DNA of 64,000 nt from Sphingomonas faeni (lineage in GTDB: Bacteria; Pseudomonadota; Alphaproteobacteria; Sphingomonadales; Sphingomonadaceae): the NCBI RefSeq assembly GCF_030817315.1, contig NZ_JAUSZF010000001.1, forward strand, positions 3,710,078 through 3,774,077, in the 5' to 3' direction. Positions 3,383 through 4,796 of this stretch are shown here, piece by piece. The translations under genes were made by a program, and so were the position numbers. The first letter of the stretch is position 1. Each line of letters begins with the position of its first letter. The notes under the pieces were generated by a model. It saw only the letters and a list, made by a program, of their open reading frames with translations, had not been told where the DNA came from and searched no databases.

Positions 3383-3652
3383 TTACTTGCGGAGACCGAG
3401 CTTCGCGATCAGATCCAGGTAGCGCTGGCCGTCCTTGTGACGGAGATAATCCAGCAGCGTCCGGCGCTTGTTGACCATCATGAGAAGGCCACGACGCGAG
3501 TGGTTGTCCTTCTTGTGGGCCTTGAAGTGCTCGGTCAGGTTCTTGATGCGCTCGGTCAGGATCGAGACCTGGACTTCCGGCGAACCGGTGTCACCCTCGG
3601 CGCGCGAATGCTCCTTGACGAGCTCGGTCTTGCGTTCAGCGGTAATCGTCAT
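3383..3652 (-). CDS. rpsO: 30S ribosomal protein S15
   Basis: An 89-residue protein, the standard S15 length, beginning [15 protein letters not shown] and containing the conserved [16 protein letters not shown] motif that contacts 16S rRNA helices 20-22 and the stretch RTLLDYLR. S15 is a primary binder of the 30S platform. The gene lies 18 bases after truB and upstream of pnp, the order common to most Proteobacteria. Confidence 0.98.
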
Positions 3653-3670: not shown

Positions 3671-4696
3671 TCACATATTGAAACCGCGAACGACCCGGAC
3701 GTCTCCGTCCTCGACCTCGACCAGCGCGACCGGGACAGCGTCCAGTTCGGCGAAGTATTGGCCATCGTCTGCGGCGATCCCGGCCAAGATACGCCCCTGT
3801 CGGAGCGCCCCTGCCTGGTCGGGGGTGAGGGAGAGAGCCGGGATGTCGTCCAGCGCCACCCTCAAGGGCAGAAGTACATCTTCAAGCGCGTTGCCTCTAG
3901 CGAGTTCGTCCAGTTTGTCCAGCGATATCGCGGAGGAGAGGTCGAACGGACCGGCCTTGGTGCGGCGCAGCATGGTGACGTGGCCGACGGTGCCGAGGGC
4001 GAGCGCGATGTCGCGCGCAAGGGAGCGGATATAGGTTCCCTTAGAGACATGCGCTGTAAGCGTGACCTCGTCGAGGGGGGCGTGGGGCAGGGGTGCTTCC
4101 TCCAATTCCTCCCCGGCACGGGGAGGGGGACCGCCGTCCGCTTGGACGGTGGTGGAGGGGGGCTCGCCAAACCCGTTACGCTCGCGGAGATCCCCCTCCA
4201 CCAGCTGCGCTGGTCCCCCTCCCCGTACCGGGGAGGATAGCGAATAAATCGTCACATCCCGGCTCGCGAGCACCACCTCATGCCCGGCCCGTGCGAGATT
4301 GTAAGCCCGCTCCCCATCAACCTTCAGCGCGGAGTACGCGGGCGGCACCTGAGAAATCTTCCCGGTGAACTGCGCGAGCACCGCCTCGACAGCCGCCATC
4401 GTCGGCCGCACGTCAGAGGTAGCCACCGGCACCCCCTCCGCATCGAGCGTATCCGTCTGAACCCCGAACATCACCGTAAAATCATAGATCTTGTCGCTAT
4501 CGAGCATCCGCCCAGCCAGCTTGGTCGCCTCCCCGACGGCAATAGGGAGCACGCCCGTCGCGAGCGGATCGAGCGTCCCCCCATGGCCAACCTTGAACTT
4601 CCCATACCCGCCGCTCCGCAAGGCACGCTTCACCGCCGAAACGCCCTGCGTCGACCCAAGCCCCAGCGGCTTGTCGAGAATGATCCAGCCATGCAT
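3671..4696 (-). CDS. truB: tRNA pseudouridine(55) synthase TruB with an in-frame palindromic-element insertion
   Basis: Isomerises U55 in the T-loop of tRNAs. The catalytic motif GHGGTLDPLATG with its Asp is near residue 45, and the conserved KGTYIRSLA motif follows later. The start MHGWIILDKP fits the family. An ATG 60 bases upstream reads through a repeat element (MSFDFAQDERG) and is rejected. The protein is 341 residues. About 44 residues (roughly 154-197, rich in Pro, Gly, Arg and Glu) between TIYSL and DEVTLTAHV have no counterpart in normal TruB and are encoded exactly by an inverted-repeat element at 4107-4237. The frame continues intact on both sides, so the enzyme is probably functional, with the insert as a surface loop just before the KGTYIRS strand. 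Confidence 0.95.
   Translation of the reverse strand: MHGWIILDKPLGLGSTQGVSAVKRALRSGGYGKFKVGHGGTLDPLATGVLPIAVGEATKLAGRMLDSDKIYDFTVMFGVQTDTLDAEGVPVATSDVRPTMAAVEAVLAQFTGKISQVPPAYSALKVDGERAYNLARAGHEVVLASRDVTIYSLSSPVRGGGPAQLVEGDLRERNGFGEPPSTTVQADGGPPPRAGEELEEAPLPHAPLDEVTLTAHVSKGTYIRSLARDIALALGTVGHVTMLRRTKAGPFDLSSAISLDKLDELARGNALEDVLLPLRVALDDIPALSLTPDQAGALRQGRILAGIAADDGQYFAELDAVPVALVEVEDGDVRVVRGFNM
4107..4237. repeat. palindromic element inside truB (family D-like)
   Basis: A 131-bp unit bounded by 26-bp inverted arms, TCCTCCCCGG(C/T)ACGGGGAGG followed by GGGACC, with an internal hairpin GTCCGCTTGGAC. It resembles the intergenic CCCCTCCC-type elements of this window but sits inside the truB reading frame without disrupting it. 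Confidence 0.85.
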
Positions 4697-4724: not shown

Positions 4725-4796
4725 CCCCGTTCGTCCTGAGCGAAGTCGAAGGACATGGGGTAAAGGTGCTTCGACTTCGCTCAGCACGAACGGGGA
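4725..4796. repeat. palindromic element, family E
   Basis: Inverted repeat with arms CGTTCGTCCTGAGCGAAGTC and GACTTCGCTCAGCACGAACG. It fills the gap between tdk and truB. Copies occur at 5489, 23983 and 43611. Confidence 0.85.

Follow-up and report, generated by a model that had tools for sequence, protein, structure and literature searches.

The window, by which is meant the whole 64,000-nucleotide stretch of Sphingomonas faeni DNA that was analysed, contains the gene for the tRNA pseudouridine-55 synthase TruB and, next downstream of it, an open reading frame that we take to be rpsO, the name being given from the protein sequence (Table 1). A palindromic element, referred to here as a member of family A, lies within truB, and a second palindromic repeat, of family F, lies at the 5' end of the gene. 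The start of the listed open reading frame falls inside this second repeat, which would read MSFDFAQDER if translation began upstream; the likely start of truB is at 4696. Family-F-like repeats were also seen within the TruB loop at loci L151, L181 (by eye), L328 and L335.

Table 1. Features at the truB locus (window coordinates)
Feature	Position	Strand	Remarks
Palindromic element, family A	4107..4237	.	131 bp; minus-strand code for TruB residues 154-197
Outer arm TCCTCCCCGGCACGGGGAGGGGGACC	4107..4132	+	With a small internal palindrome
Outer arm, inverted partner GGTCCCCCTCCCCGTACCGGGGAGGA	4212..4237	+	
Side hairpin (GCCGTCC-GCTT-GGACGG)	4133..4149	+	DNA and RNA folds
Inner stem 4150-4161 / 4192-4203 (TGGTGGAGGGGG / CCCCCTCCACCA), apical part between	4150..4203	+	Inverted-repeat search
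truB (tRNA pseudouridine-55 synthase)	3671..4696	-	341 aa from MHGW; TruB_N and TruB_C_2 flank the insert
Second palindromic repeat, family F	4725..4795	.	Arms 30 nt, 93%; 5' end of truB
rpsO (presumed), next gene downstream of truB	3383..3652	-	Open reading frame

The element within truB

An inverted-repeat search paired the outer arms of the element, 26 nt each, at 96% complementarity across a spacer of 79 nt. The element was also far more stable than its shuffled versions when folded as DNA (z -8.6) or RNA (z -9.7), with none of 200 shuffles reaching the same stability. Searching the window with the arm pattern, at up to 3 mismatches, gave four matches against 0.09 expected, all of them within the element itself, and a loose form of the pattern searched across the whole genome, as the sequence-only reading had proposed, gave 21 and 19 matches against none for the reversed control. 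The arms, the folds and the 12 genomic places described below confirm that the element with 26-bp inverted ends described in that reading is real. An assembly artefact, which the same reading had named as a possible refutation, is an unlikely source of the insert, since the same element recurs in the same frame and at the same junction in 15 other genomes. Rfam returned nothing near a gathering score for the element, the matches being nine weak ones to eukaryotic RNA families.

The TruB frame is open throughout the element on the minus strand, translation itself being predicted from the sequence, and the portion encoded by the element amounts to 44 residues of the 341-residue protein, in agreement with the in-frame insertion of about this size that had been claimed. 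Pfam places TruB_N (53-174) and TruB_C_2 (244-302, both in the numbering of a 361-aa frame) one on each side of the insert. The catalytic motif is intact, as had also been stated: residues G40, T41, L42, D43, P44, A46 and G48 of GGTLDPLATG are invariant across 33 aligned TruBs. An AlphaFold model built with 33 sequences (mean pLDDT 87.8) resembles E. coli TruB (1k8w; TM 0.88 by target length and 0.79 by query length), and has residues 159-189 at pLDDT <50 between the strands at 146-154 and 210-217. The insert is accordingly modelled as a disordered loop, consistent with the tolerated loop between two strands that had been envisaged and with the likeness drawn to Rickettsia palindromic elements (RPEs), in that a palindromic selfish repeat is read in frame within a predicted, tolerated disordered loop.

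Family A elsewhere in the genome

With the element as query, 12 places were found in the 4.37-Mb genome at E <1e-3 (overlapping matches merged), of which 11 are 130-192 bp long and too short for a gene, giving the family the short, multicopy and gene-less form with terminal inverted repeats that is expected of MITEs. The copies are sharply bounded, most of them by TCCTCCCC...GGGGAGGA, and the surroundings are usually A/T-rich. Genomic settings are given here for three copies, namely that in truB, one that falls between the 3'-phosphoesterase and ligase domains of LigD, in frame, and one at 2747868, directly behind a stop codon. As with RPEs, a palindrome is thus found in frame within conserved proteins, the open frames in TruB and LigD being predicted. 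Family-A palindromes are easily read through: among the 11 gene-less copies, that in truB included, 45 of 66 frames are open, compared with 30.8 in dinucleotide shuffles.

The twelfth place (G000:C1:2857318-2857759) carries a frame encoding a DUF559 protein (PF04480, E 2.1e-27) between the same ends. The left 70 bp of this copy align with each of the 11 gene-less copies across 48-62 bp and the right 70 bp with 10 of the 11 across 27-68 bp, so that the gene-less copies have their ends in common with a gene-bearing partner, as MITEs do.

Occupants of the same TruB loop in other genomes

The sequence-only reading had expected the insert to be restricted to close relatives, which proved not to be the case. 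TruB was matched in 264 of 267 genomes of the same genus (Sphingomonas in the GTDB sense), and a loop insert was confirmed at the DNA level in 146 of these 264; only loci read at that level were counted, and match counts alone were not used for frequency. With the addition of G012 (completeness <90, and hence outside the 267), 147 inserts were read. The insert-like genomes G107, G170, G209 and G289 were left out of the reading, and rows L062 and L179 of the genus set (anchors missing) and L087 (outgroup) were dropped. An inverted repeat scoring at least 12 was present in 131 of the 147 inserts, the best score among 147 shuffled controls being 11, and 146 inserts fit one of nine palindrome labels, several of which are unrelated in sequence (A 100, A' 9, B 10, C 3, D 18, E 2, F 2, G 1 and H 1); L059 is the sole insert in which no palindrome was recognisable. 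Labels were assigned by fuzzy match to family cores, core clustering having replaced a whole-insert clustering that fused families via shared flanks, with two of the genus labels assigned by eye; labels given by eye overall are those of L142, L181, L333, L346 and L354, and L299, L312 and L319 were set, likewise by eye, to none. A' resembles A, and families B, C and D have in common an initial CGTC and an arrangement of paired hairpins. A further 14 same-genus TruBs read at the DNA level have no insert. Two of these, L060 and L064, seem to keep both element ends and by eye look like scars of internal deletion.

In other genera of the family, 70 loci were read (30 of them selected for an unbroken match and 40 for the lack of one), of which 65 were labelled: 19 hold palindromes (seven labels), 16 hold longer loops without a palindrome and 30 have no insert. 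The 16 longer loops (label N) were at first taken as inserts from split matches, an assignment that was abandoned when no palindrome appeared on reading. The five rows dropped because of the anchor pattern, L338, L341, L348, L353 and L364, were by eye A, C-like, G-like, native loop and native loop, respectively. Longer palindrome-free loops in some other genera (L333, L345-L365) share sequence (GRPDPYDP...), and L350 and L359 have a palindrome on top of a loop of this type, which may itself be an old domesticated insert. Across the class, 140 of 144 genomes had a TruB match, and the match was split at the loop in only three, all of the same bacterial family as this genome, in a survey blind to inserts small enough to stay within one match.

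The presence in all sphingomonad TruBs of an extra segment of unrelated sequence had been offered as a refutation of the original idea. Many TruBs do have an unrelated extra segment, although not all of them do, and the core palindrome idea survives because almost all of the segments read within the genus are themselves palindromic elements. Two further observations were made at individual loci. Genome G062 has two truB matches on different contigs (L138 and L179), the second of which has an in-frame stop and failed the anchors. At L139, L138 and L122 the truB flanks prolong the palindrome past its usual ends, as would be the case if symmetric targets were entered by the elements, or made by them.

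Turnover at the loop and at other sites

Different families occupy the one loop in very similar TruBs. Fourteen disjoint pairs of TruBs that are 93-98% identical outside the loop hold different loop content, 12 of the pairs having two palindrome families and two having a palindrome versus none; pairs were chosen by a greedy procedure that started with the most similar, A versus A' was not counted as a difference, and insert-free TruBs are undersampled. On a TruB tree (fasttree, <300 residues per row, weakly resolved) the minimum number of changes, a rough figure, was 25 for insert presence and 34 for element class. What look by eye like nested insertions were seen in L051 (D inside A), L170 and L212.

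The intergenic site behind the stop codon, noted above for one family-A copy, holds a palindrome in this genome and in all 20 relatives, the 21 occupants being by eye A (5), CCCCTCCCG type (11), A' (4) and B-like (1). Palindromes of four types at one intergenic site indicate that turnover at a single site also takes place outside truB. Since this one orthologous site is filled in all 20 relatives, it provided neither an empty site nor a readable target-site duplication. The linker of LigD shows a similar pattern: among 30 LigD loci that were read, some have A and some have D palindromes in frame, the remainder having other linkers.

Association of DUF559 genes with palindromic arms

Counting fragments, this genome has five DUF559 matches, and as many as 10 are present in a relative. 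Inverted flanking arms scoring at least 16 were found around 41 of 49 DUF559 genes from near the genus (24/29 in a first set plus 17/20), five of the 49 being from other families of the order; the 29 are those usable of 31 genes in the first set, L235 and L241 having been left out because they lie at contig ends. In a class-wide sample such arms flank 13 of 28 DUF559 genes. Control windows with arms of this score numbered 0/229, 0/220 and 0/1000, the threshold of 16 having been fixed after a maximum of 15 had been seen in the first control. DUF559 genes lacking score-16 arms therefore make up 8 of the 49 near the genus and 15 of the 28 class-wide, and in this genome three of five are armed, L247 and L248 being without arms. 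Arms like those of TruB-loop types A, A', E, G and H occur around DUF559 genes, and no tie to DUF559 was seen for families B, C, D and F of the TruB loop. Three of the 41 armed genes (L227, L243 and L261) fall outside all arm labels.

The type of arm follows the nuclease phylogeny. Broad arm labels required 7 changes on the DUF559 tree against a shuffled mean of 22.2, and stricter labels, based on the arms alone (38 rows), required 9 against 19.8, with a minimum of 14 in 500 shuffles; each tree contains one wrong-strand row (L225 with the broad labels, L220 with the stricter), and the association holds in both. The A and A' nucleases form one clade (support 100/99) with rows from four genomes, which includes the armless L248, and the type G nucleases form another (100/95), but neither types E/H nor type I make up a single clade.

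An alignment of the DUF559 proteins has nine invariant columns, E20, D48, E59 and D61 among them. The closest folds to a model of the protein (pLDDT 86) are 3hrl and the homing endonuclease I-Bth0305I (3r3p, E 3e-5), with a weaker match to Vsr (1cw0, E 6e-3), and a profile search also matched the protein to 3r3p (E 2e-5). On these models, a homing-nuclease fold is predicted for the protein of the gene-bearing copy, the copy in truB being gene-less.

Constraint on the insert

Among 16 truB inserts of one lineage (120 pairs), pN/pS was 1.25 in the insert compared with 0.10 in the TruB flanks. Divergence was 0.024 and 0.019 in the two arms, 0.037 and 0.045 in the segments that adjoin them on the inner side, and highest, at 0.167, in the middle of the element, which is near the value for four-fold sites of the flanks (0.187); the stems diverge 4-10 times more slowly than four-fold sites. 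With the encoded peptide free and the stems slow, it follows that the stems are held at the level of nucleic acid within coding sequence. Their upkeep could be due to arm-to-arm correction, to conversion with other copies, or to a function of the hairpin. A T opposite G in the arms has been retained in 15 of the 16 inserts, which argues against frequent correction of either kind, and the few arm changes that were seen are single and uncompensated.

Discussion

The insert in truB is probably a MITE-like, non-autonomous copy of a palindromic mobile element whose fuller member carries a gene for a small DUF559 nuclease of the Vsr/EDxHD type. The observations behind this reading are the ends shared with the DUF559-bearing copy, the association of DUF559 genes with arms, the co-inheritance of nuclease and arm type, the in-frame copies in TruB and LigD, the disordered loop of the model, and the occupation of one loop by different families in TruBs that are otherwise very similar. 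Mechanistically, the DUF559 nuclease would nick or cut target DNA and host repair would copy the element into the cut target in a homing-like manner, which would permit short gene-less copies to move in trans. Insertions would then persist only where they are harmless, that is behind stop codons, in inter-domain linkers and in the TruB beta-hairpin loop, and as only harmless sites would be tolerated, the same places would be hit, lost and refilled by whichever palindromic family is active. The loop peptide would have no selected role. Since families B, C, D and F were not seen tied to DUF559, this nuclease would not explain all occupants of the loop, and those families would need another mover.

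Certain observations sit uneasily with this reading. Armless DUF559 genes exist, one of them (L248) inside the A/A' clade, and the slow stems are unexplained by a purely neutral insert. The latter raises the possibility, which we consider doubtful, that the truB hairpin is retained because it serves a function, such as mRNA processing, folding or attenuation, the peptide being merely its price. Conservation of arms and inner stems in the 16 inserts when peptide constraint is lacking is in keeping with this, as is the finding that 12 of the 14 closest differing TruB pairs hold two palindromes, subject to the undersampling of insert-free TruBs. However, 14 same-genus TruBs are insert-free, and the genomes with two-piece matches suggest many more of them; unrelated sequences of differing size fill the TruB loop, at an intergenic site the same repeats take one another's place, and arm-to-arm correction could also keep stems alike. 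A single ancient TruB insert that diverged by lineage is scarcely credible. While labels A and A' account for 109 of the 147 inserts of the genus, and 16 close relatives apparently have a single orthologous copy in common, the TruB tree, weakly resolved as it is, calls for at least 34 switches of element class, and the reading was rejected because unrelated palindromes occupy the loop in TruBs whose identity elsewhere reaches 98%, barring recombination of the flanks.

As regards the mover, the element could conceivably be a MITE of ordinary IS origin that a classical DDE transposase mobilises in trans, with DUF559 as a passenger or a repair or defence nuclease. Terminal inverted repeats, precise ends, A/T-rich junctions and the DUF559 genes near the genus that are without strong arms are all compatible with such an origin, but DUF559 is the only cargo among the 12 family-A copies of this genome and the type of nuclease tracks the type of arm across genomes, which would not be expected of a random passenger; we regard this explanation as unlikely. 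Mobilisation by a REP/RAYT system, with its tyrosine transposase, appears very improbable. Finding palindromes inside genes and after stop codons is typical for REPs (PMC3733652), although the copies here are 130-192 bp long compared with the 20-40 bp given for REPs. RAYT was rejected as the mover, as no match to Y1_Tnp (PF01797) was obtained at E 10 in the whole genome, where the control set had matches in 10 of 14 genomes.

The preferred reading, that of a DUF559-linked mobile element, has points in common with several known systems. RPEs are palindromes of about 150 bp that are found in frame within unrelated proteins (PMC10969869), and one of them, RPE-1, lies in the TruB gene of R. conorii (PMC3733652). 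The likeness to these is one of behaviour, a palindrome adding in-frame residues to a protein; the host is different, there is a gene-bearing partner here, and several families share one loop. REP insertions in TruB genes were already known elsewhere, PMC3733652 reporting them in S. maltophilia, E. litoralis (spelt 'E. lithoralis') and S. alaskensis, so that the statement in the sequence-only reading that such behaviour is not usually described for sphingomonads was only partly true. The same source places GTAG and CGTC REPs within genes and finds CGTC REPs to lack any association with transposase genes. TruB-loop families B, C and D resemble the CGTC REPs (Di Nocera 2013, PMC3733652) in starting with CGTC and in their paired-hairpin layout, whereas the element in the window has no CGTC tag at its ends, is larger, and belongs to a family with a DUF559-bearing form. 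As with REP-RAYT systems (REPtrons), in which short palindromes accompany a cognate gene flanked by them (PMC3733652), a gene is found here between palindromic arms, but it encodes a Vsr-like nuclease as opposed to a tyrosine transposase, and no RAYT was found in the genome.

The DUF559 protein is matched in fold and in sequence profile by I-Bth0305I (3r3p, EDxHD type), which differs in being, by its PDB name, a mobile-intron protein. We know of no palindromic MITE-like setting for I-Bth0305I or for the Caulobacter protein VsrA. EDxHD enzymes are listed among homing families (PMC6083498). VsrA shares the DUF559 domain, and a role in mismatch repair has been argued for it (PMC12907096); this other role counts against DUF559 as the mover. 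The terms 'palindrom' and 'inverted repeat' are absent from the available portion of that paper. In the literature searched on DUF559, palindromes, MITEs and Vsr homing enzymes, with subscription papers mostly outside it, no title or start of an abstract links DUF559 to palindromic elements. The link with DUF559, the turnover within one loop and the conservation of stems when the peptide is unconstrained look new against that literature.

Taken more broadly, we lean, if only slightly, towards the view that DUF559 nucleases and palindromes are cognate pairs that form a mobile class across the Alphaproteobacteria, the gene-less copies of which move in trans and re-enter the same tolerant loops, with stems conserved while the peptide drifts. 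This would provide a candidate mover for palindromic repeats that abound in a large group of bacteria and would connect DUF559, whose function is unknown, with mobile DNA. The loop of a single enzyme also represents a natural experiment in insertion tolerance, many times repeated, and the gain of sequence by bacterial proteins from selfish DNA becomes testable.
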